DNA of 52,858 nt, from the NCBI GenBank assembly GCA_020249045.1, contig JADCGK010000046.1, forward strand, positions 1-52,858, read 5' to 3'. The DNA comes from Azospirillum sp. Its GTDB lineage: Bacteria; Pseudomonadota; Alphaproteobacteria; CACIAM-22H2. Of this stretch, positions 231-52,316 are shown piece by piece; positions within the stretch are counted from its first letter, which is position 1; the number at the start of each line of letters is the position of its first letter. Under the pieces are notes generated by a model. The model was not told where the DNA came from. It ran no database searches and saw only the letters and a program-made list of their open reading frames with translations. The translations under genes were made by a program, and so were the position numbers.

Positions 231-887
231 ATGCGGATCGCAAGATATTGGGCGCTGTTGGGCGCGATGGCGGCGTTGGCGGGGTGCGCGCGCGCGCCCG
301 TCGATCCTGCGACCTGCCGGGTCGCGCGGTTGGCCGCAGCGCCCGTCGAGGCCTCGGCACTCGGCGGCTTGGGCATGCCGCCCGCCCATCTTTCCGCGGC
401 CGAGATCGATGCCGTCGCGGCGTGTCTCGCACCCGGGCTCGACGCCGCCTTCGCCGCCGTCGGCGATCGCGCGCTCGTCGGCAAACGTTTCGCTCCGATG
501 TCCCTTGGGTATCGCGCGTCCGAACATGGAATGTTCTTGCAGGTCTATGCGGATCCGGCGGCGGCGGACTCCTATCGCCGCTACGAGGCGGGCGCGCGGA
601 TCGCCCAAGGCGGGACGATCGTCAAGCGCAGCTTCCGCGTGGCCGCCGACGGCAAGGTCGAGGCGTATCGTGTTTTCGCGATGGAGCGGATGGCGCCCGG
701 TTACGCGCCGGACGCGAACGATTGGCGCTTTGCGTTATACGCGCCGGACGGCGCGCTCGTCGGCGAAACCGGCGGGCGCGGGGATGCGGGCGTGCGTTTC
801 TGCGTCGAATGCCATGCGGCCGCGCGGACCCAGGATTTCCTGTTGTTCGTGCCGCCCGCCTACAGAATGCCGCCGACCGTCAGATAG
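231..887 (+). CDS. Cytochrome P460-like haem lipoprotein
   Basis: The product is 218 residues. It starts with a lipoprotein signal (hydrophobic ALLGAMAALAGC, lipid-attachment Cys19), so it should be anchored on the periplasmic side of a membrane. The C-terminal half has the P460 layout: a GGTIVKRSF strand, an acidic APDANDW segment, and a single haem c motif CVECH (Cys191, Cys194, His195) followed by QDFLLF. Known P460 proteins oxidise hydroxylamine or detoxify nitrogen oxides; many relatives are uncharacterised. ATG at 231 was chosen because it starts the signal peptide; upstream in-frame sequence looks non-coding. It converges on the TauE-like gene with a 28-base overlap of the two 3' ends. 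Substrate is unknown. Confidence 0.78.
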   Translation: MRIARYWALLGAMAALAGCARAPVDPATCRVARLAAAPVEASALGGLGMPPAHLSAAEIDAVAACLAPGLDAAFAAVGDRALVGKRFAPMSLGYRASEHGMFLQVYADPAAADSYRRYEAGARIAQGGTIVKRSFRVAADGKVEAYRVFAMERMAPGYAPDANDWRFALYAPDGALVGETGGRGDAGVRFCVECHAAARTQDFLLFVPPAYRMPPTVR

Positions 888-1603
888 GCACCCAGCGCCA
901 GGATGAACGCGAAGAACGCGCGTTTGAATGCGGCAAGCGACAGCCGCGCGCGCAGGCGCTGGCCCAGCCACATGCCCGCCAGCGCCGGTCCCACGGCGGC
1001 GAGCGAGACGAATGCCGCATCCGCATCGAACACGCCCGCGCGGCCCAGGCCAATCGCCAGCGCGAGCGTCGAGATCATGAACGAAATACCCAGCGCCTGG
1101 ACGAGTTCATCTTTCTCCAATCCGATGGCCGCGAGATAAGGCACAGCCGGCATGACGAACACGCCGGTTACGCCGGTGACCGCGCCGGTCGCCACCCCGC
1201 ATGCGGCGCCCGCCCCGCCCGCGTGTCGGGGCGCCAGTCGCCATTGCCGGCCCGACAGCGTCAGGGCCGCATAGCCGAGCAACACGAGCCCCAGCGCCAA
1301 ACCCGCGCGTTCGCCCAGCGGCCCCGCAAGCGCGCCTGCGGCCAGCGCGGTCGAAGGCGCCAGCGTCACCAAGAACGGCCACAGGCGCGCGCATAACGCG
1401 ACGAAGCGCCCGCCCGCGAGCATCTGCCAGAAATTGGTGACGAGCGAAGGCACGATCAGAAAGGCCGCCGCTTCGGTCGGCGCCATGGCGAGGGCGAGCA
1501 GCCCGAGCGTGATCGTCGGCAAGCCCATGCCGAGGACGCCTTTGGAGAGGCCGCCGAGGAAAAAGACGAGGCCGGCGAACGCGGCGAGAGCGGGGTCGGT
1601 CAT
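860..1603 (-). CDS. TauE/SafE family sulfite/anion exporter
   Basis: A 247-residue membrane protein with about seven to eight hydrophobic helices. The N-terminus FAGLVFFLGGLSKGVLGMGLPT is typical of TauE/SafE permeases, which export sulfite, sulfoacetate or related organic anions. The family repeat recurs in the second half (ACGVATGAVTGVTGVFVMP). It is divergent from a LysR-type regulator 71 bases away, an arrangement that usually means the regulator controls the exporter. The substrate cannot be read from sequence. Confidence 0.85.
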   Translation of the reverse strand: MTDPALAAFAGLVFFLGGLSKGVLGMGLPTITLGLLALAMAPTEAAAFLIVPSLVTNFWQMLAGGRFVALCARLWPFLVTLAPSTALAAGALAGPLGERAGLALGLVLLGYAALTLSGRQWRLAPRHAGGAGAACGVATGAVTGVTGVFVMPAVPYLAAIGLEKDELVQALGISFMISTLALAIGLGRAGVFDADAAFVSLAAVGPALAGMWLGQRLRARLSLAAFKRAFFAFILALGAYLTVGGIL

Positions 1604-1674: not shown

Positions 1675-2559
1675 ATGCGCTTCGATCCGCTCGATCTCGA
1701 GCTGGCGCTTGCGGTCGCCGAAACCGGCAGTCTTGCGGGCGCCGCCAAACGATTGGGCCGGGCGCTCGCCTCGGTCAGCGGCCGGATGAAGGCCATCGAA
1801 GCGGCGTGCGGGGTCGCGCTGTTCGCGCGCCATCGGCGGGGCCTGGCGCCGACCCAAGCCGGCATCACCTTCCTCGAACACGCGCGTGCGCTGTCCTTCG
1901 CGCATGCGCGCTTGCGCGCGGATATGGCCGAATTCGCGGCCGGCGCGCGACGCACGGTTCGGGTGGCGGCGAATACCGGGGCGGCCGACGAGCATTTGCC
2001 CGCCGATCTCGCCGCGTTTCTCGCCGCCCATCCCGACATCGACGTCGAGTTGGTCGAACGGCCGAGCCCGGAAATCGCCCGGGCGGTGGCGATCGGCGAG
2101 GCGGATGTCGGCGTCGCCGCCGATACGGCGGAACTCGCCGGCGTGCGCGTATATCCCTATCGCGCCGATCCGTTGGTGGCGTTGCTGCCGCGTGGACACG
2201 CGCTCGCCCGTCGCAAGGCGATCACGCTCGCGCGGCTCGCCGCCATCCCGATGGTGGCGCTCGATGCGGAGTCCGCGCAAGCGCGCCTGGTCGAAGGGCA
2301 GGCGGCCAAACTCGGCTTTCGCCCGCGCATCCGCGCGCGTGCGGGCGGGTTCGACGCGCTGGCGCGCTTCGTCGCGGCGCGGGCGGGCGTGGCCGTTATG
2401 TCGCGCGTGGCGGCCGAGCGCGCGTGCCGGTCGCTGCCGGTCGCATGGGTTCCGCTCGCCGACCGTTTCGCGCGGCGGCGCTTGGTTCTGTGCGTGCGCC
2501 GGATGGGCGGATTGTCCAAGCCCGCGCGGGCGTTGGTCGAGGCGTTGCGCGCCGGTTAG
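1675..2559 (+). CDS. LysR family transcriptional regulator
   Basis: The product is 294 residues. Residues 1-60 form the winged helix-turn-helix typical of the family (ELALAVAETGSLAGAAKRLG, then FARHRRGLAPTQAG). From about residue 90 follows the periplasmic-binding-protein-like effector domain. It is divergent from the TauE/SafE exporter, which is its likely target, with a palindrome between them. Its last 4 bases overlap the 3' end of parE on the other strand. The inducer is unknown. Confidence 0.9.
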   Translation: MRFDPLDLELALAVAETGSLAGAAKRLGRALASVSGRMKAIEAACGVALFARHRRGLAPTQAGITFLEHARALSFAHARLRADMAEFAAGARRTVRVAANTGAADEHLPADLAAFLAAHPDIDVELVERPSPEIARAVAIGEADVGVAADTAELAGVRVYPYRADPLVALLPRGHALARRKAITLARLAAIPMVALDAESAQARLVEGQAAKLGFRPRIRARAGGFDALARFVAARAGVAVMSRVAAERACRSLPVAWVPLADRFARRRLVLCVRRMGGLSKPARALVEALRAG

Positions 2560-18354: not shown

Positions 18355-18373
18355 GATGTTATAAAGTAACATC
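18355..18373. promoter_or_regulatory. Zur-like palindrome before the His-rich outer-membrane gene
   Basis: GATGTTATAAAGTAACATC has 7-base inverted arms (GATGTTA/TAACATC) around five bases. Its core TGTTATA-A-AGTAACA shares the 7-1-7 spacing and 12 of 15 bases with the palindrome at 46853. It resembles Zur boxes (TGTTATAnTATAACA) and ends 13 bases before the start codon, where a repressor would block transcription. The Zur assignment is inference from the motif and from the His-rich product. Confidence 0.6.
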
Positions 18374-18386
18374 TGTGGGGGGGCTT

Positions 18387-19622
18387 ATGTTGAAAATCCT
18401 GAGTTTTTTAGCGGGTTTTGCTCTGCTTCTGGTTCCGGCCGCAGCGCAAGCTTCGGAAGGTCACGCGCACGGGGAAGGCGCGCATGTCGATACGGACGTC
18501 ACGCTGAAGCTTGGCGTGGATCGCAACTATCGTTCGACCAATGCCCGCACGCGCTACACCGACGCGTATGGCGAGGCCGAGGCCGTGGCCAAGTTCCATT
18601 TCAACGCGGCGTTCTTCGTCCAAGCGAAGCTGCATTGGGAACGCGTCAAGTTCGCGACAGAAAATCGCGCCTTCGGCGGGCACGGGCTTTATCTCGAAAA
18701 TCTGTTCGCCAGTCTCGCGTTCGACGGGAATTCGGTCGCGCTGGGCAAGTTCAATCCCAATTTCGGCATGGGGTGGGACGATGCGCGCATGCCGGGTTTC
18801 TACGCGAACGAGTTCGCGAAGGATTACCAGACGAAGGAGGCGATCGGCGCCGCCTACGGCCGGAAGGCCGATTTCGGCGCGCTCGGGACGCACAAATTCG
18901 ACGCGGCGTTCTTCTTCCTCGACAATACGTCGCTGTCCCGCTCGGCCTTCAACCGGCCTGCCTATGGCCCCGGCCAAGGTCCGTTGTCGACGACGCAACG
19001 CTTGGGCCAGAACCGCGCGATCTATGGCGGTCCGGGCAACACGACCGCGCCGGAATCGTTCGCTTTTCAATACGAAATCGCCGATCCCGCGGGCGTGGCG
19101 GGCCTCGTGTTCGCGGCCGGCTATCGCTACCTCGCGGCCGGAGACAAGCAGCCGGCTGGCCTTCAAGCCGGCAACGGTCCGGTCGCCTCCCGGGCCTCGC
19201 ACGGCACGGTCGCCGCGGCGCGCTACGAAATCGGATTGCCGGCCGGTTTCGTGGTCACGCCGTTCGTCGAGTGGGCGAAATTCACCGACGTATTCAATTC
19301 CGATCCCAATATCGGCGTGAATCAGTTCAAGGACCGCGCCTACCTGACCACCGCCGCGATCCTGACATGGCGCGATTGGACGCTGGTTGCCTCGCGGATG
19401 ACGCGCACCTTCGCCCGGCCGGACAACGAAGCCGTGGCCGGCGCCTTCTTCAATCAGGAAGACCGTCAGGTCGCCGCCAACCTTCTCTACAAGGTTTGGG
19501 ACGACCTGACGCTCGGGGCGGGCTACCGCAAGACGCGCGCAGTGCCGGTCTTCGGCAACGTCAACCGGCAGGCGGTGACGAACAGCTTCGGCGCACAAGC
19601 CGTGTACACGCTGGAATTCTGA
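18387..19622 (+). CDS. Outer-membrane porin-like protein with His-rich mature N-terminus
   Basis: A 411-residue exported protein. The signal peptide MLKILSFLAGFALLLVPAAA is cut near AQA-S. The mature N-terminus EGHAHGEGAHVD has three His and could bind Zn2+ or a similar metal. The body alternates short beta strands and ends in a Phe (VYTLEF), the usual outer-membrane barrel signature. ATG 18387 begins the signal peptide; in-frame upstream sequence covers the palindrome and is not coding. It is monocistronic and converges on bcp. A Zur-like site lies directly in front. A metal-uptake channel is a reasonable inference; a generic porin is the alternative. Confidence 0.75.
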   Translation: MLKILSFLAGFALLLVPAAAQASEGHAHGEGAHVDTDVTLKLGVDRNYRSTNARTRYTDAYGEAEAVAKFHFNAAFFVQAKLHWERVKFATENRAFGGHGLYLENLFASLAFDGNSVALGKFNPNFGMGWDDARMPGFYANEFAKDYQTKEAIGAAYGRKADFGALGTHKFDAAFFFLDNTSLSRSAFNRPAYGPGQGPLSTTQRLGQNRAIYGGPGNTTAPESFAFQYEIADPAGVAGLVFAAGYRYLAAGDKQPAGLQAGNGPVASRASHGTVAAARYEIGLPAGFVVTPFVEWAKFTDVFNSDPNIGVNQFKDRAYLTTAAILTWRDWTLVASRMTRTFARPDNEAVAGAFFNQEDRQVAANLLYKVWDDLTLGAGYRKTRAVPVFGNVNRQAVTNSFGAQAVYTLEF

Positions 19623-39657: not shown

Positions 39658-42600
39658 ATGGAGTGGGGTATCGTCGCGGCGCTCGCGGCGGCGGCGGGCG
39701 CGGGATACGCGCTGGGCCGTCTTGGCCGGCAGTCCGGCGGCGTCCCGTCGGTGCTGCGGGATCGCCATGGCGTCGAGGCGGCGATCGCCGAGGGCGAACG
39801 GCGCTTGCTCGACACGATCAATGCGGTCGAGATCGGGTTCCTGGTCTGGGATCGCGACGATCGCCTCATGCTGTGGAACGAGCATTACTTCGAGATCTTT
39901 CCGCATATGCGCGGCGCGTTGCAGCGCGGCATGTCGTTCGAGGCCTATATCGAGGCGACGGCTGCGGTCGTCATCGCGCTGGGCCGGCCAGAGCGCGCCG
40001 CGTGGGTGCGCGGCGAACGCCGCGCGCGCCACCGGCGTTTCGGCGAGGTCTTCCTTCAGCGCGCCGCGCGCGGGCGGGAGATCGAGACGGCCGAATACGC
40101 GATGGGCGACGGCGGCGCCGTCGCGATTTATCGCGACGTCACGGCGTTGCACCGCGCCGAGCGCGCGGCGGCGGAAAACCGCCAGCGGCTGATCGACTCG
40201 CTGGAGGCGCTCGGCGAGGGAATCCTGATCCTCGACCGGGAGGATCGCGTCGTGTTCTGGAACCGACGCTACGTCGAGATCCTGCCCTATATGGACGGCA
40301 TCGTGCGCCGGGGCGCGACGTTCGCGGAACTGGCCGAGGACGTGCGCGCGAAGCTGCGCGCCGATCCCGATCCGGACGCGTCGTTGCGTCGGCACGAGGA
40401 GCGCATACGTCGCGCGCGCGAGTTCGGCAAACCTTACGTCGCCAACCCTGCGGGCGGCCGATCGGTCGAGATCACCCAATACGCGGCGGCCGATGGCGGC
40501 GTCGTCGCGGTCTATCGCGATCTGAGCGAGACGCTCGAAGCGGAGAAGGCGCGTCGGGCCAGCGAGGCGCGGTTCCGGGACGCGATCGCGGGCATGGCCG
40601 ATGGGTTCGTGCTCTACGACAAGGACGACCGCGTCGCCGCGTGGAACGAACCGTTCGTCGAACTCTATCCCGCCTTGCGCGGGGTCTTGCGCGAAGGCCT
40701 GTATTTCAAGGACGTGGTCCGCGCGATCGCGACCGCCCATCGCCCCGAAATCGCGGGGCGGGATCTCGACGCCTATATCGAAGCCCGCTACGCGCGGATG
40801 CGGCCCGTCCCGACGGCGCGCGACGAGGTGACGATCCGCGGACGCCGGCTGGAGATCGCGCGACGCGCGACCAGCGACGGCGGGGTCGTCGCCGTCCTTC
40901 GCGACGTGACCGAAGCGCGGATGGCCGAAGTCGCGGTCCGCGAATCCGAGGCGCGGTTCCGCGACGCGATCGCGAACATGGCCGACGGCTTCGCGCAGTT
41001 CGATTCCGGGAACCGCTTCGTCGCGTGGAACGAACGCTATCTCGACATCTTTCCGGCCTTGCGCGGCGTGATCAGGCCCGGCCTGCCGGTGGTCGAGGCG
41101 ATGCGCTTGGCCGCGCCCGCCGCCATCGGCTCGTCCGATCCGGACGCGGTCGAACGATGGATCGCCTCGCGTCTCGCCGCGCTCAACGTCGCCGGGGCCG
41201 AGGACGAGCAGACCGCGATCGGTGCGCGCACCCTGCGGATCACCCGATCGCGCACGTCCGAAGGCGGTGTGGTGGCGATTTTGCGCGACGTGACGGCGGA
41301 TGCCGAGGCTGCGCGGGAACTCGAGCGCGCCAAACAGGCGGCGGAGGCGGCGAGCAGCGCCAAGTCGGAGTTCCTCGCCAATATGAGTCACGAGTTGCGG
41401 ACGCCGCTCAACGGCGTCGTCGGCATGCTTGACGTGATGCTTGCGGGCGCCCTGGGCGACGAGACGCGCCGGCAGGCGGAGATGGCGCGTTTCTCGGCCG
41501 AGCGCCTCCTCAAGGTGATCGGCGACATCCTCGACATCTCCAAGCTCGAAGCGGGCGCCCTGCAGATCGACCGCACGGTCTTCGCGCCGGCCGACGCGGT
41601 ACGCGACGCTTCGGCCACCTTTGCCGCCTCCGCCGCCGCCAAGCGGCTGTCGCTCGAAACCGACGTGGCTGCGGATTTCGAGGGGCCCGCCGTGGGCGAT
41701 CCGATGCGCTTGGGGCAGATCCTGCTCAATCTGGTTGGCAACGCGGTCAAGTTCACCGAACGCGGCTACGTGCGCGTGCGCGCCTTCCGCGCCGACGGCG
41801 ACGAAGCGGTCGTCGAAGTCGCCGACAGCGGGCCGGGGATCGAGCCCGCCGCCCAGCGCCGGTTGTTCACCAAGTTCTTCCAGGCCGATGCGTCGGTCAC
41901 GCGCCGCTACGGCGGCACGGGGCTGGGCCTCGCCATCAGCGGTGAGTTGGTCGCGGCGATGGGCGGATCGATTTCGGTCGAATCGCGGCCGGGCGAGGGA
42001 GCGGTTTTCCGTCTGCGTCTGCCGTTGCCGCGTGCCACGCCGACATTGCCGGCTTTGGCGCGCGCGGCGGGCGACGGACCGGCGGTGGCGTTGCGGGCCG
42101 AAGGCAAGCGCTTGCTGCTGGTCGAGGACAACGAGGTCAATCGCTACGCGGCGGCCAAGATGCTGGAGCCGACGCGCGCGATCCTCGACATCGCCCATGA
42201 CGGGGTCGAGGCCGTGGAACTCGCGGGCTTGCGCGCCTACGACGCGATCCTGATGGACGTGCAAATGCCGCGCATGGACGGATTGGAGGCGACGCGCCGC
42301 ATCCGCGCCTCCGACGGGCCGAGCGCGACGGCGCCGATCCTGGCGTTGACCGCCAACGCTTTCGTCGAGGACGTCGAACGCTGCCGCGCGGCGGGCATGG
42401 ACGGGCATTTGGCGAAACCCGTGCGCGCCGCCGATCTGATCGCGGCCGTGGGCCGGGCGCTGGCGCACGGGCGGCACGGGGCGGCGCAGATTTCCGATCC
42501 GCGCCCGCGCCCCGCGCCGGCCCGCGCCGTCCCGGGCGCGCCGCTCGACGAGGCGACGTTGATCGCGCTGGAGAGCGACGTCGGGGCGGCGACGGCCGCC

Positions 42601-42879
42601 TCGCTCGCCGTTTCGTTCCGCCGCGAACAAGGGCGGCAGTTGCGCGGGCTGGAGAACGCGCTCGCGCGCCGCGATCTTGCGCTGCTTTCGCGCGACGCGC
42701 ATTCGATCAAGGGGGCCGCGCGGATGTTCGGCGCGCGCGAATTGGCGCATCTCGCCTTCGAAATCGAACGCGCGGCGAAGTCCGGCGCCGTCGACGGACT
42801 CGATGCCACGCTCGAGGCCGCCGCGCATGCGTTCCGGCGCGTCGACGACGCACTGGGCAAACGCTACGCCGCGAACTAG
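39658..42879 (+). CDS. Hybrid sensor histidine kinase, four PAS domains, REC and Hpt
   Basis: A 1073-residue phosphorelay protein. After a short N-terminal hydrophobic stretch come four similar PAS domains (about residues 50-160, 180-295, 310-425 and 435-550), each with a D(R/K)xDRxxxWN(E/R)xY-like core. Then HisKA with His578 in [12 protein letters not shown], HATPase ([30 protein letters not shown]), a receiver with Asp867 in [11 protein letters not shown], and Hpt with His1015 in [11 protein letters not shown]. It thus contains all relay steps except an output regulator. The signal is unknown. It lies 12 bases before SCO1. Confidence 0.92.
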
Positions 42880-46429: not shown

Positions 46430-46846
46430 GTGACCGCATCGTCGCCTACACTCGACATCTGCAATCGTTGCCGCCCGCAAGGCTGGGAAGGCCCGCTCGA
46501 AGAACGTCCGGGCCGCAAACTTGCCCAAGCCGTCGACGCCGAACTCGCCCGGCGCGGGGTCGCCGACGTCGCGCGCCGCGACATCTACTGCCAAAGCCAG
46601 TGCAAACGCGCGTGCACCGTCGCATTCGCCGGCGGTGCCGCGCGTTTCACGTTCCTGTTCGGCGATTTGGATCCTCAGAAGCACGCGGGCGACGTGATCG
46701 ACGCGTTTTTGGCCTATCGCGAGCGGCCCGATGGGTTCCTGGCGCGTGCGGAACGTCCCGCACCTTTGCGCGAGGGCATTCTTGCGCGGATCGCCCCGCC
46801 CGGTTGGCGCGGCGAACTGGTCCTCGACGAAAAATCGGGTGTCTGA
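46430..46846 (+). CDS. DUF1636-type metal-binding/ferredoxin-like protein
   Basis: A 138-residue cytoplasmic protein with Cys11 and Cys14 in ICNRCRP and Cys54, Cys58 and Cys62 in YCQSQCKRACTVAF, a pattern of the DUF1636/COG5469 group. These have a thioredoxin-like [2Fe-2S] or metal-binding fold and often lie in cobalamin gene clusters. GTG 46430 is chosen because GGGAAAG lies upstream and all conserved residues follow. It is the first gene after the B12 riboswitch; a Zur-like palindrome starts 6 bases after its stop. Its biochemical role is unknown. Confidence 0.78.
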   Translation: MTASSPTLDICNRCRPQGWEGPLEERPGRKLAQAVDAELARRGVADVARRDIYCQSQCKRACTVAFAGGAARFTFLFGDLDPQKHAGDVIDAFLAYRERPDGFLARAERPAPLREGILARIAPPGWRGELVLDEKSGV

Positions 46847-46852
46847 TCGTTT

Positions 46853-46867
46853 TGTTATAGTATAACA
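46853..46867. promoter_or_regulatory. Zur-type palindrome TGTTATAGTATAACA
   Basis: A perfect 7-1-7 inverted repeat in the 47-base gap between the DUF1636-type and binding-protein genes. It matches the bacterial Zur consensus (TGTTATAnTATAACA) and the palindrome at 18355. It ends 26 bases before the ATG of the transporter gene. It should control a second, zinc-responsive promoter inside the run. Binding by Zur is inference. Confidence 0.72.
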
Positions 46868-46893: not shown

Positions 46894-48366
46894 ATGGACA
46901 TGCGTTGGTTTTTCGCCGTTTTGCTGGCGCTGTCGCCGATTGCCGCCGACGCGCAGACGCGTCCGCTCGTCGTCGGGCAAAGCTTTCTCACCGACTCGCT
47001 GGACCCCGTACAGGGTGTCGCGGGTTGGGCGTTGCAGTCGCACGGCGTCGCGGAGACCTTATTCACCGTTGATCGGCAGGGCCGCGTCGTGCCGCATTTG
47101 GCCGAAAGCGTGCGCCGGGACGGCGAGGCTTTCGTGATCCGCCTGAAGCCGGACCTGAAATTCGCGGACGGGTCGCCGCTGGACGCTGCGGCGCTCAAAG
47201 CCTCGCTCGAACGCGCGACGCGCGAGAATCCGCGCGCGCGGGCGCAGACCGGCGCGTTGGCGTTGATGGCGTTGGACGCGCGCGAAGTGCGTATGCGGCC
47301 CGAACGGCCCGTCGCGGCGATCGAAAGCGTCCTCGCCGAATTTCCATTGGCTGTCCACAAAGCCGACGGGACCAACGTGCACATGACGGGTCCGTTCCGG
47401 CCGGTCGAATTCCGGCGCGGGGAAACCTTGCGGCTCGAACCCAACCCGCATTACCGCGACGCGGGCGCACGGCCGAACGTGACGATCCGGCGCGTGGGCG
47501 ACGCGCAGACGCTGGCGCTGGCGCTGGAAAGCGGCGAGGTCGATATCGCGTTCAATCTGGCGCCCGAAACGCTGGCGCGCGTGCGCGCCCGGCCGGGGAT
47601 CGGCGTCAAATCCACGCCGGTCGCCTACCAGTACATGATGCTGTTCAACACCGCCAAAGCGCCGTTCGACGATCCGCGCGTGCGCCGTGCGGCGGACCTT
47701 GCGATCGATCGTGCGACGTTGACGGCGGCGGTGAACGGCGGCGAACCCGCGAGCGGCATGTTCCCGCGCGTCTTCCCCTTCGCGGCCGAAACGCCGCGCC
47801 CGACCGACACGCGCGAAGCGGCGGCGTTGCTCGATGCGGCCGGATGGCGTGCCGGCCCCGACGGTCGGCGCTCGAAAGACGGTCGACCGCTCGAATTCAC
47901 GCTGACGACCTATCCCCAGCGGCCCGATCTGGTCGCGATCGCCCCGGTGGTCCGCGCCGAATTGGAGCGCGTCGGGTTCCGCGTGCGGATCGAGATCGTC
48001 GAGGCGATCACGCCGCAGTTGCAGGCCAAGCGGTTCGACGCGTCGCTGTGGGCCATGCATGCCGCCCCCGGCGGGGACGGCGCGTTCGTGTTCGAGCAGT
48101 ATCTGCGCTCGACCGGTCCGTCGAACTTCATGTCTTTCGCCGATCCGGCGCTCGACGCGGCGCTCGACAGCTTGCGCGAGATCGACGCGGCGCCCGCGCG
48201 TGCGGCCGCGCTGCGCGAGATCGAGCGACGGACGTTCGTTTCGGCGCCGATCGCCTATCTGATGACCCCGGTCTGGCATGTCGGCCTATCCGCCCGGGCG
48301 GCGGATTACGTGCCCTATCCGTCGGACTATTACGTCGTCCGCGCCGACCTGCGCGCGCGGCCCTGA
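46894..48366 (+). CDS. Nickel/peptide-type ABC transporter substrate-binding protein (SBP family 5)
   Basis: A 490-residue periplasmic protein of the DppA/NikA/OppA family. The signal peptide (WFFAVLLALSPIAADA) is cut before QTRPLVVG. VVPHLAESVRRDGEAFVIRL and FADGSPLDAAALKASLERAT are the conserved N-lobe segments; RRAADLAIDRATLTAAVNGG marks the C-lobe hinge. GAGGAG lies 7 bases before ATG 46894. The ligand may be a metal chelate, metallophore or peptide; in this setting a zinc or cobalt complex is suspected. Its stop overlaps the next start by one base. Confidence 0.88.
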   Translation: MDMRWFFAVLLALSPIAADAQTRPLVVGQSFLTDSLDPVQGVAGWALQSHGVAETLFTVDRQGRVVPHLAESVRRDGEAFVIRLKPDLKFADGSPLDAAALKASLERATRENPRARAQTGALALMALDAREVRMRPERPVAAIESVLAEFPLAVHKADGTNVHMTGPFRPVEFRRGETLRLEPNPHYRDAGARPNVTIRRVGDAQTLALALESGEVDIAFNLAPETLARVRARPGIGVKSTPVAYQYMMLFNTAKAPFDDPRVRRAADLAIDRATLTAAVNGGEPASGMFPRVFPFAAETPRPTDTREAAALLDAAGWRAGPDGRRSKDGRPLEFTLTTYPQRPDLVAIAPVVRAELERVGFRVRIEIVEAITPQLQAKRFDASLWAMHAAPGGDGAFVFEQYLRSTGPSNFMSFADPALDAALDSLREIDAAPARAAALREIERRTFVSAPIAYLMTPVWHVGLSARAADYVPYPSDYYVVRADLRARP

Positions 48367-49283
48367 TGCGCGCGTTGGCGGCCGAACTTGCGCGGGCGAC
48401 CTTGTTGCTGTGGCTTGCGAGCCTCGCCGCGTTCGCGGTCGTCCGCGCAATGCCGGCCGATCCGGCGGCCCTTGGTTTGATCGCCTTCGGCCAAGCGGCC
48501 GATCCCGAAACCGTCGCCGCCTTGCGCGCGCAATGGGGCTTGGATCGGCCGATGGCGGTCCAGTATTTCGGCTGGCTTGCGGATTTCCTGTCCGGCGACT
48601 GGCGGCGGTCCTTCCGGACCGGAGAGCCGATCTTCGAGGAATTCGCCCGGCGTCTGCCGGTCAGTTTGACCGTCGGGTTCGGCGGCTTGTTCGTGGCGCT
48701 GGCGATCGCGGGGCCGCTCGCGACGGCGGCGGCGAAACGACCGGCGGGCGGCGCGGCCCGGTTGCTCGACGCCGCGACCCTGGGTGCGCAGGCGATACCG
48801 GCCTTCTTCGCCGGTTGCGTGCTGGTATGGCTGTTCGCGGTCGAGTTCCGCGTCGTGACCGTGCTGGGGGAGGGGCCGGGGCGCTACGTCCTGCCGATTT
48901 TGATCGTGGCGTTCACCGGGCTTGGTCCGCTCGCGCAAGTCTATCGCGCCGGCTTGGCGGAGGCCGGCCGCGCGGATTACATGCGCACGGCGTTGGCCAA
49001 AGGGGCCGATCCCGAACGGGCGTTGGCCGGCCACGGCGGGCGCTACGCGCGCTTGGGCTTGAGTGCGGCGTTGACCGCCGAGGCCGGCTGGATCGTCGGC
49101 GGATCGGCGGTGGTCGAGGTCGTCTTCGGGTTGCCGGGGATCGGGGCGTTCCTGGTCGATGCGGTCGCAATGCGCGACTATTTCGTGCTGCAAGCCTACA
49201 TCGTCGTCGCGGCGGCGTGGATGTTGATCGTCGCGGCGATCGCCGCGGTCGCGCGCCGCGCGCTCGACCCGAGGGCGGGCTGA
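48366..49283 (+). CDS. ABC transporter permease, DppB/NikB type
   Basis: A 305-residue inner-membrane protein with six hydrophobic helices. RAMPADPAALGLIAFGQAAD, then ETVAALRAQWGLDRPMAVQY and FGWLADFLSGDW(R)RSFRTG, are the N-terminal signature of the dipeptide/nickel permeases. EAGRADYMRTALAKGADPER contains the ATPase-coupling loop. It overlaps the genes on both sides by one base (TGATG), so the three transporter genes are coupled. Confidence 0.92.
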   Translation: MRALAAELARATLLLWLASLAAFAVVRAMPADPAALGLIAFGQAADPETVAALRAQWGLDRPMAVQYFGWLADFLSGDWRRSFRTGEPIFEEFARRLPVSLTVGFGGLFVALAIAGPLATAAAKRPAGGAARLLDAATLGAQAIPAFFAGCVLVWLFAVEFRVVTVLGEGPGRYVLPILIVAFTGLGPLAQVYRAGLAEAGRADYMRTALAKGADPERALAGHGGRYARLGLSAALTAEAGWIVGGSAVVEVVFGLPGIGAFLVDAVAMRDYFVLQAYIVVAAAWMLIVAAIAAVARRALDPRAG

Positions 49284-50191
49284 TGTCCCACCACGCGCCC
49301 GCCGCCATCGAGCGCAAGCTTTGGCTCATCCCGGCGCTGGCCGTCGCGGCGGCCGTATGCGCCTTCTGGCAGCCTTATCCGCCCGATGCCGTCGATGTGT
49401 TCAACCGCCACGCGCCACCGTCGGCCGCGCATTGGCTGGGAACCGACCAACTCGGCCGCGACCTCGCTTCGCGCGTCATGGCCGGCATGGCGCGGACGTT
49501 CCTCGCCGTCGGCATCGTCGCGGCCATGTGCGTGGCGCTCGGCCTTGCGGTCGGACTGGCGGCGGCGGGTGCGCGGGGGATCGTCCGTGCGGGCTTGCTG
49601 CGGCTGGCCGAATTCGCGGCCGTGATGCCGTCCATGGTCGTGGCGATCGCCGTCGTGGCGGTGGCGGGGTTCGACGTCGTGACCGCCGGGGTGGCGCTCG
49701 GCTTGGGCGCTTGGGGCCCCTATGCGCTGCTCGCCGACGGGCTCGCGCGCCGCGCGCTCGCCGAACCTTACGTCCGCGCGGCCGCCGCATTGGGCGCCTC
49801 GCGTCCGCGCGTGCTCGTTCGGCACGTCTTGCCCGCGATCCTCGACACCCAATTCGCCTATCTGGGCGCAAAGCTGGGCCGCGTGGCGATCGCCTATGCC
49901 GCACTCGCCTTTCTCGGTCTGGGGGCGGATCCCGGCCGGCCCGATTGGGGCGCCATGCTCCACGAATACCGGCTGCTCGCTTTCGACCATCCGGGGCTGA
50001 TGCTGTGGCCCGGCTTCGCGCTGGTGACGATGTGCGTGGTTTTGCGCGCGGCGTTGGGCAAGGATGCGGGCGCGCGGGTGCCGGCAAGCTCGGCCGATAC
50101 GCCCGCAGCGCTGGCGTGCGCCGACCTGCACGCGCCCGAAGCCGATAACCCCGTCGCGGTTGGGGTGGAAACCGCGCCCCGAACCGGCTAA
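49283..50191 (+). CDS. ABC transporter permease, DppC/NikC type
   Basis: A 302-residue partner of the preceding permease. HWLGTDQLGRDLASRVMAGM is the DppC/NikC signature, and RAAAALGASRPRVLVRHVLP is the coupling loop. The final 40 residues are a soluble tail (KDAGARVPASSADTPAALAC...) without a known counterpart. No ATPase gene of the NikD/NikE type follows; the next gene, 29 bases on, is a GTPase. The transporter must use an ATPase encoded elsewhere. Confidence 0.92.
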   Translation: MSHHAPAAIERKLWLIPALAVAAAVCAFWQPYPPDAVDVFNRHAPPSAAHWLGTDQLGRDLASRVMAGMARTFLAVGIVAAMCVALGLAVGLAAAGARGIVRAGLLRLAEFAAVMPSMVVAIAVVAVAGFDVVTAGVALGLGAWGPYALLADGLARRALAEPYVRAAAALGASRPRVLVRHVLPAILDTQFAYLGAKLGRVAIAYAALAFLGLGADPGRPDWGAMLHEYRLLAFDHPGLMLWPGFALVTMCVVLRAALGKDAGARVPASSADTPAALACADLHAPEADNPVAVGVETAPRTG

Positions 50192-50220: not shown

Positions 50221-51294
50221 ATGTCCCAGCCGATTCCCGTTACCGTCCTGACCGGCTATCTCGGCGCCGGCAAGACCACCCTGCTGAACCGCATCCTGAC
50301 CGAATCGCACGGCAAGAAGTACGCCGTCATCATCAACGAGTTCGGCGAGGTCGGCATCGACAACGACATCGTCGTCGGCACCGACGAAGAAATCTTCGAG
50401 ATGAACAACGGGTGCATCTGCTGCACCGTGCGCGGCGATCTGATCCGCACGATCGGCGGCTTGATGAAGCGCGCCGACGCGCTGGACGGCATCATCGTCG
50501 AAACGACCGGACTCGCGGACCCGGCCCCGGTGGCGCAAACCTTCTTCACCGACGACGAGGTGAAGGCCAAGACCCAACTCGACGCCGTCGTGACGGTGGT
50601 GGACGCCAAGCACTTCCCCTTGCGGCTGGAGGACAGTCGCGAGGCCGAAGACCAGGTGGCCTTCGCCGACGTCGTACTGCTCAACAAGACCGATTTGGTG
50701 TCGCCCGCCGATCTCGCCGCCGTCGAACGGCGCATCCGCGAGATCAATCCCTACGCGCGCATCCACCGCACGCAGAAAAGCGCCATCGAACTCGACAAGA
50801 TCCTCGACAAGGGCGCGTTCGACTTGCAGCGCATTCTCGCGCTCGATCCGCATTTCCTGCACGATCACGGCCATCATCACGACCATGATGATGGCCACGA
50901 TCACGATCCGGCGACGTGCGACGATCCGACCCACGATCACAGCCACGACCATCACCATCACCACCATCACGACGCGCCCAATCCCAAGCACGCCGACGAC
51001 GTGTTCTCGGTCGCCGCGGTCGTGGACGGGCCGGTCGATCCCGAGAAGTTCCGCGTTTGGATTTCGGGCATCTTGCAAAGCCAGGGACAGAACATCCTTC
51101 GTTCGAAGGGCGTGCTGGCGGTCGAGGGGGCTGAGCAGCGCTTCGTCTTCCAAGCCGTTCACATGATCGCCGATTCGACGTGGGGCCAGCCCTGGCGCGC
51201 GGGCGAGAAGCGTGGCTCGAAGCTCGTCTTCATCGGCCGCAAGCTCGACGCGGAGGCGCTCAAGGCCGGGTTCGAGGCCTGCAAAGCGGCATGA
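50221..51294 (+). CDS. COG0523 GTPase (CobW/YciC/ZigA-like) with His-rich loop
   Basis: A 357-residue P-loop GTPase metallochaperone. Walker A is GYLGAGKTT (residues 12-20), the metal-binding motif is C65-I-C67-C68, and base recognition is NKTD. Residues about 211-257 are dominated by His and Asp and should bind several metal ions; the CobW C-terminal domain follows. Zinc-regulated members deliver zinc to proteins under zinc starvation; others act in cobalamin synthesis (CobW) or nitrile hydratase. Here a Zur-like site upstream favours zinc, a B12 riboswitch leaves cobalt open. Its stop overlaps the WD40 gene start by 4 bases. Confidence 0.9.
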   Translation: MSQPIPVTVLTGYLGAGKTTLLNRILTESHGKKYAVIINEFGEVGIDNDIVVGTDEEIFEMNNGCICCTVRGDLIRTIGGLMKRADALDGIIVETTGLADPAPVAQTFFTDDEVKAKTQLDAVVTVVDAKHFPLRLEDSREAEDQVAFADVVLLNKTDLVSPADLAAVERRIREINPYARIHRTQKSAIELDKILDKGAFDLQRILALDPHFLHDHGHHHDHDDGHDHDPATCDDPTHDHSHDHHHHHHHDAPNPKHADDVFSVAAVVDGPVDPEKFRVWISGILQSQGQNILRSKGVLAVEGAEQRFVFQAVHMIADSTWGQPWRAGEKRGSKLVFIGRKLDAEALKAGFEACKAA

Positions 51295-52316
51295 GCGAGG
51301 CCAAGTTACCGGCGCGGCGCGAGTTCGCGTTCGGCGCCTATGTATCCGGTGCGGCTTTCACGGCCGACGGCGAAACGGCCGGCTTCGCACTCGGTTCGGG
51401 TGCGATCAAGCTCGTGACCGTCGCGGATTCGAGCGTGCGCGAGATAGCGGCGCACAAGGGCGCGTCGCTGAGTTTCGCCGCACACCCGGACGGCAACTCC
51501 TTCCTGTCGGGCGGGGACGACGGGCGCCTCGTGCGCGTCGCGCGCGACGGGGAAACTTCCGAGGTCGCGAAATTCCAAGGCAAGTGGCTCGACGTTCTCG
51601 CCACGCACAAATCGGGCGGCTTCGCCTGCGCGTTCGGCAAGGAAATCCGCTATTGGGCACCCGGCGCGACCGAGCCCAAAACGCTGGGGCCGCACCCGAG
51701 TTCGGTCGCCGCCCTCGATTTCAGCCCCGACGGCAGCCGTCTGGCCGCCGCCCATTACGGCGGCGCGTCGATCTGGCAAATCCGAAATCCCGCCAGCGCC
51801 CCGCGCAAGCTGGATTGGAAGGGCAGTCACATCGTCGTCAGATACGCACCCAACGGCAAATTTCTGGCGACGACCACGCAAGACAACGCGATCCATGTTT
51901 GGCGTCTGGCCAATGGCCAGGACATGCAGATGGCCGGCTATCGGACCAAGGTGAAGGCGCTCGCCTGGACGGCCGACGCGCGCTACCTGCTGTCCGACGC
52001 GGCCGATTGCTTCGTGTGCTGGGATTTCTCGGGCAAGGGGCCGGAAGGCCAACCGCCCGTCGAGTACGGCTTCGGCGACGGCCGGGCGATGACCGCGGCG
52101 ATCGCCCACCCCGATAGCCCGTTCGTTTGCGGCGGGTTCGAGAACGGCGCCTTGCGCCTGGGCGATATGGATTCCAAGCGCGATCTCGAATTGCGGCCCG
52201 GCGCCGACGACCGCAAGCCGATCCGCGCGATGGCGTGGTCCCCCGACGGCTGGCGCATCGCCGCGGGTGCGGAAGACGGCTATGCGACCGTCTTCGATTT
52301 GAAGGCCAAGTCGTAG
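51291..52316 (+). CDS. WD40-repeat protein coupled to the COG0523 GTPase
   Basis: A 341-residue soluble beta-propeller with about seven WD40-like repeats (for example VAALDFSPDGSRLAAAHYGG, YAPNGKFLATTTQDNAIHVW, MAWSPDGWRIAAGAEDGYAT). It has no signal peptide. The start overlaps the GTPase stop (ATGA), so the two are made together and probably interact. WD40 proteins commonly accompany COG0523 GTPases in alphaproteobacteria, but their role is not established. A scaffold presenting client proteins to the metallochaperone is a hypothesis. Confidence 0.85.
   Translation: MSEAKLPARREFAFGAYVSGAAFTADGETAGFALGSGAIKLVTVADSSVREIAAHKGASLSFAAHPDGNSFLSGGDDGRLVRVARDGETSEVAKFQGKWLDVLATHKSGGFACAFGKEIRYWAPGATEPKTLGPHPSSVAALDFSPDGSRLAAAHYGGASIWQIRNPASAPRKLDWKGSHIVVRYAPNGKFLATTTQDNAIHVWRLANGQDMQMAGYRTKVKALAWTADARYLLSDAADCFVCWDFSGKGPEGQPPVEYGFGDGRAMTAAIAHPDSPFVCGGFENGALRLGDMDSKRDLELRPGADDRKPIRAMAWSPDGWRIAAGAEDGYATVFDLKAKS

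Follow-up and report, generated by a model that had tools for sequence, protein, structure and literature searches.

Organization of the porin and transporter loci

The window (the whole 52,858-nt stretch of Azospirillum sp. DNA that was analyzed) contains two 15-bp palindromes, one shortly upstream of a porin-like gene and the other upstream of a set of ABC transporter genes. The features of the two loci are:

18357–18371, no strand assigned: predicted Zur box, TGTTATAAAGTAACA, two mismatches to the 7-1-7 palindrome consensus
18387–19622, plus strand: outer-membrane porin-like protein of 411 aa, with a signal peptide and a His-rich mature N-terminus (HAHGEGAH)
46430–46846, plus strand: DUF1636 protein (PF07845), upstream of the box here and within a putative Zur operon in three relatives
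46853–46867, no strand assigned: predicted Zur box, TGTTATAGTATAACA, a perfect 7-1-7 inverted repeat
46894–48366, plus strand: periplasmic substrate-binding protein (SBP, SBP_bac_5), nearest model of the NikA type
48366–49283, plus strand: ABC permease of the NikB type (domain and NCBIfam models)
49283–50191, plus strand: ABC permease of the NikC type (domain and NCBIfam models)
50221–51294, plus strand: COG0523 (CobW-type) GTPase carrying a long His-rich insert (PF02492, E 3e-61; PF07683, E 7e-26)
51291–52316, plus strand: WD40-repeat protein, overlapping the end of the COG0523 gene and a conserved neighbor of COG0523a in relatives

The first-pass annotation had placed palindromes of equal half-site spacing and 12/15 identity at 46853–46867 and 18357–18371, and all of this was confirmed; the mismatches between the two boxes are confined to positions 8–10. 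The 46853 box starts 6 nt downstream of the DUF1636 stop codon, and 26 nt lie between its end and the ATG of the SBP gene; for the 18357 box, the distance to the porin ATG (18387) is 15 nt. A scan for sigma-70-like promoters at the two boxes found none. It had also been claimed that both boxes lie directly before genes for proteins with His-rich metal-binding stretches. This holds for the 18357 box, which is followed by the porin with its His-rich N-terminus, but not for the 46853 box: the SBP lacks such a stretch, and it is the COG0523 GTPase, encoded fourth in the apparent operon, that is His-rich at that locus.

The five genes from SBP to WD40 share the plus strand, with hardly any gaps between them. 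Both the CobW nucleotide-binding and the CobW C-terminal domain are present in the COG0523 protein, whose His-rich stretches are HDHGHHHDHDDGHDHD and HDHSHDHHHHHHHD. For the SBP and the permeases, the best NCBIfam models were nickel types, all under cutoff. The set differs from NikABCDE-type importers, for which an SBP, two permeases and two ATPases are encoded together: no ATPase gene was found within this operon, nor downstream of the permeases in those orthologous operons that were read. Opp/Nik-type ATPases are encoded elsewhere in the same genome, so the simplest idea would be an ATPase shared with another transporter. Two ABC domains encoded behind a second COG0523 gene (contig C18, L057, 6912–8594) were considered as a lost NikDE pair and rejected, as they belong to one 560-aa protein, which on visual inspection we took for an EttA-type ABC-F protein. 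The window also encodes, at 39658–42879, a hybrid sensor kinase in which several PAS_7 domains are combined with response regulator and Hpt domains, an ordinary protein unrelated to the palindromes.

The porin-like protein (18387–19622) had neither a Pfam nor an NCBIfam match. Behind the signal peptide its N-terminus reads SEGHAHGEGAHVD, and this His motif recurs in the orthologs of the genus, mostly as H-x-H-G-x-G-x-H with small variations. An AlphaFold2 model based on 27 homologs was a 16-strand barrel (mean pLDDT 80), and the best Foldseek matches were general porins (E down to 4e-15). The predicted structure is thus that of a general (OmpF-like) porin, an assignment to a fold class and not to a family, since the TM-scores were only 0.5–0.6. 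Homologs at ~30% identity occur across the class, mostly with neither a Zur box nor the His motif.

Occurrence of the palindrome in the genome

We examined the occurrence of the palindrome using mismatch patterns for the whole genome and matrix scoring for the window and two further sites:

contig C18, 5571–5585: third strong Zur box (predicted), flanked by a divergent DUF1826 gene and by the gene for a second His-rich COG0523 GTPase
contig C113, 17675–17689: weak site CGGTATAATATATCG in the zur/znuA gap of the same genome, 4 mismatches, 13.8 bits

Within the window, the pattern TGTTATANNNTAACA with up to two mismatches matched the 46853 and 18357 boxes and nothing else, and the expected number of matches in 100 dinucleotide shuffles of the window was 0. 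With the same tolerance, the 3.87 Mb genome had only three matches to the TGTTATANTATAACA palindrome (the two boxes and the C18 site), all of which precede genes of the zinc-regulon kind (porin, SBP operon and DUF1826/COG0523). At three mismatches the genome gave 7 matches vs 5 in the control. Four of these (L007–L010) were rejected as Zur sites and regarded as background, because they had no zinc genes nearby and their number was close to that of the control.

A genome scan with a matrix from the two boxes had been proposed in the first-pass annotation. With a matrix built instead from 28 sites of relatives, none taken from the genome itself, the 46853 and 18357 boxes ranked first (37.3 bits) and second (20.3 bits) in the window; the C18 site scored 32.0 bits. 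Simulated sequence of 3.2 Mb contained no site that equaled any of these three scores. The scan also returned the weak site between zur and znuA. Sites like it are expected ~2.4 times per genome by chance, but only ~1e-4 times in the ~140-bp gap. From its weak matrix score, the zur/znuA box of this organism is probably a degraded or low-affinity one, unlike the corresponding boxes of relatives.

Another palindrome in the window, GGTTATTCCATAACC at 1643–1657, is located between a TauE-like gene (860–1603, minus strand) and an apparent LysR-type gene (1675–2559, plus strand). It was the third hit of the matrix scan, and with 13.6 bits, which is the chance level for the genome, it was rejected as a Zur box; it is perhaps a LysR operator.

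The regulator and conservation of the boxes in relatives

Three Fur-family proteins are encoded in the genome (98% complete). One of them, a 161-aa protein, is encoded in an operon with znuC and znuB, with znuA divergent, and its best NCBIfam model was PRK11639 Zur (E 4e-33; 114 bits, below the equivalog cutoff of 167). The best model together with the ZnuC and ZnuB neighbors identifies this protein as Zur. The best models for the remaining two were Irr (L002, above cutoff) and Fur (L001). The first-pass annotation had made its reading depend on a Zur protein in the genome and on further sites before zinc genes. The former is present, encoded with znuC and znuB, and the latter were found as the C18 site and as boxes before zur-znuCB in nine other genomes.

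Allowing no more than one mismatch, we detected 21 sites in 11 genomes of the genus, compared to 1 for the reversed control. They were located before zur-znuCB (6 sites), porin (5), the SBP operon (4), DUF1826/COG0523 (4) and another ABC transporter (2), and no recognized iron gene was seen behind any of the sites of these genomes. The box directly precedes zur-znuCB, often as a tandem pair, in six relatives of the genus and in three more distant genomes (G011, G015 and G023).

Orthologs of the SBP operon in three relatives (L037, L043 and L046) have the same site directly upstream. In three relatives the operon lacks such a site, and Zur would act on it from the box before DUF1826; gene order in three relatives is COG0523, box, DUF1826, DUF1636, SBP, permease, permease. 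Among the nine porin orthologs of the genus, that of the organism itself included, eight have a site (0–3 mismatches) shortly before the start codon, five of them perfect, and one (G002, L077) has none. Outside the genus, the site is absent in most porin homologs.

Two additional observations were made in relatives. Perfect or near-perfect boxes precede a different, complete-looking SBP-permease-ATPase set in three genomes (L045, G006:C8; L052, G004:C6; L060, G057:C47), possibly a second kind of peptide/nickel-type transporter under Zur control, judging from these boxes. In G005 (C64:9644–10730; L116, L119), the porin ortholog is split across two frames with a stop, which may be an assembly error, and a 2-mismatch Zur-like box is still located upstream.

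Comparison with known Zur regulons and the nature of the cargo

Several features of these loci have counterparts in characterized Zur systems. The Zur box of Sinorhizobium fredii, a 15-bp inverted repeat with the 7-1-7 design of our boxes, was bound by Zur in EMSA and is found before znuA and znuC-znuB-zur; the accessory targets differ (c06450 and COG5266), and the passages considered here do not mention a porin or an SBP_bac_5 operon (PMC7029138). Zur sites across many proteobacteria share a conserved GTTA-5N-TAAC motif, also in Caulobacter crescentus, where a COG0523 gene (zrpX) is among the Zur targets (PMC4176598). The 15-bp 7-1-7 boxes upstream of both our targets contain this motif. At the outer membrane, however, Caulobacter has TonB-dependent receptors (PMC4176598), in contrast to the predicted 16-strand porin-like barrel of the present organism.

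A close parallel for the operon involves Paracoccus denitrificans, in which both a COG0523 gene and a Ni/dipeptide-type ABC operon were reported to be preceded by Zur motifs, and Zur bound the DNA before pden1341 in EMSA (PMC5387054). The pden1338–1344 region likewise has a 15-bp palindrome before COG0523 and before SBP-permease-permease, with two hypothetical genes between (PMC5387054), and the gene order of three relatives described above, with DUF1826 and DUF1636 in these positions, resembles it. Equating the two unnamed Paracoccus genes with DUF1826 and DUF1636 is a guess. The box bases differ in detail (GTAATATAATAACAT in P. denitrificans), and pden1344, located behind the permeases there, encodes an ATPase (PMC5387054), whereas here COG0523 and WD40 genes occupy that position. 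COG0523 subfamily 5 was described beside WD40 genes, with several members predicted behind Zur sites, and DUF1826 was noted among Zur-regulated clusters (Haas et al. 2009, PMC2770081). Our COG0523 gene also adjoins a WD40-repeat gene, a neighborhood like that of subfamily 5, with the difference that it is joined here to NikABC-like genes. Thus, the box and the Zur control of COG0523 and of a nickel/peptide-type ABC operon are already known from S. fredii and P. denitrificans. Less ordinary here are the porin with its conserved His-rich N-terminus and the SBP-permease-permease set devoid of ATPase genes.

These parallels also bear on the solute of the transporter. The boxes could be Zur operators while the SBP-permease set carries nickel, peptides or another solute instead of zinc, a reading that concerns the solute alone and is compatible with Zur control. 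We consider a non-zinc cargo rather unlikely, though of some weight: it would fit the below-cutoff nickel-type models of the SBP and permeases and the Paracoccus counterpart, which has no assigned substrate either (PMC5387054), but the operon includes a His-rich COG0523 protein and a WD40 protein, an arrangement linked to zinc (PMC2770081), and the similar Paracoccus operon is Zur-controlled and induced by low zinc (PMC5387054).

Probable assignment of the boxes to Zur

It is very probable that both palindromes are Zur operators of one regulon. The common Zur-type regulator that the first-pass annotation had proposed to link both genes is supported by the regulator gene, the exclusiveness of the sites and the coupling of box and targets across species. 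A palindromic, AT-rich operator design is common to the Fur family, and Fur-like (L001) and Irr-like (L002) proteins are encoded in the genome, which would allow the boxes to be operators of one of these regulators and the genes to be iron-responsive. This is highly improbable given the box directly before zur-znuCB in nine other genomes, the agreement of the targets (COG0523, DUF1826 and Ni/peptide-type ABC genes) with published Zur regulons, and the genus sites, none of which was seen before a recognized iron gene. The least credible reading is that the palindromes arose by chance as AT-rich repeats or that one alone is functional: the 3-mismatch count near that of the control and the four extra matches with no metal genes nearby would agree with it, but it is opposed by the zero expectation in window shuffles, by the simulated sequence in which neither box was equaled, and by the conservation of both boxes before orthologs at ~67–79% protein identity.

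Proposed role in zinc acquisition

With both boxes read as Zur operators, a model for the two loci can be proposed. When zinc is sufficient, Zn-loaded Zur dimers would bind the 7-1-7 box in the short stretch before the start codon and block transcription. Under zinc shortage, repression would be lifted and the porin unit and the SBP-permease-permease-COG0523-WD40 operon transcribed, and the third strong box would control the DUF1826/COG0523 pair. The His-rich porin may help zinc or zinc complexes across the outer membrane; the SBP-permease operon may import zinc or a zinc-ligand complex, with COG0523 supplying a metallochaperone. By analogy with studied Zur proteins, we infer Zur binding, repression and the direction of the zinc response. 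With less certainty, zinc or zinc complexes would be the cargo of both the porin and the SBP-permease set. The full route, in which a Zur-controlled porin captures zinc by its His-rich N-terminus during zinc starvation and a NikABC-like SBP-permease set devoid of ATPase genes borrows its ATPases, is a tentative proposal to which we give somewhat less than even confidence.

The boxes suggest a regulation-based function for a porin and a transporter operon, neither of which is annotated as zinc-related. Where Caulobacter relies on TonB-dependent receptors, the zinc regulon of this genus would have an outer-membrane pore among its members, and the two loci would make the passage of zinc through this membrane accessible to tests.
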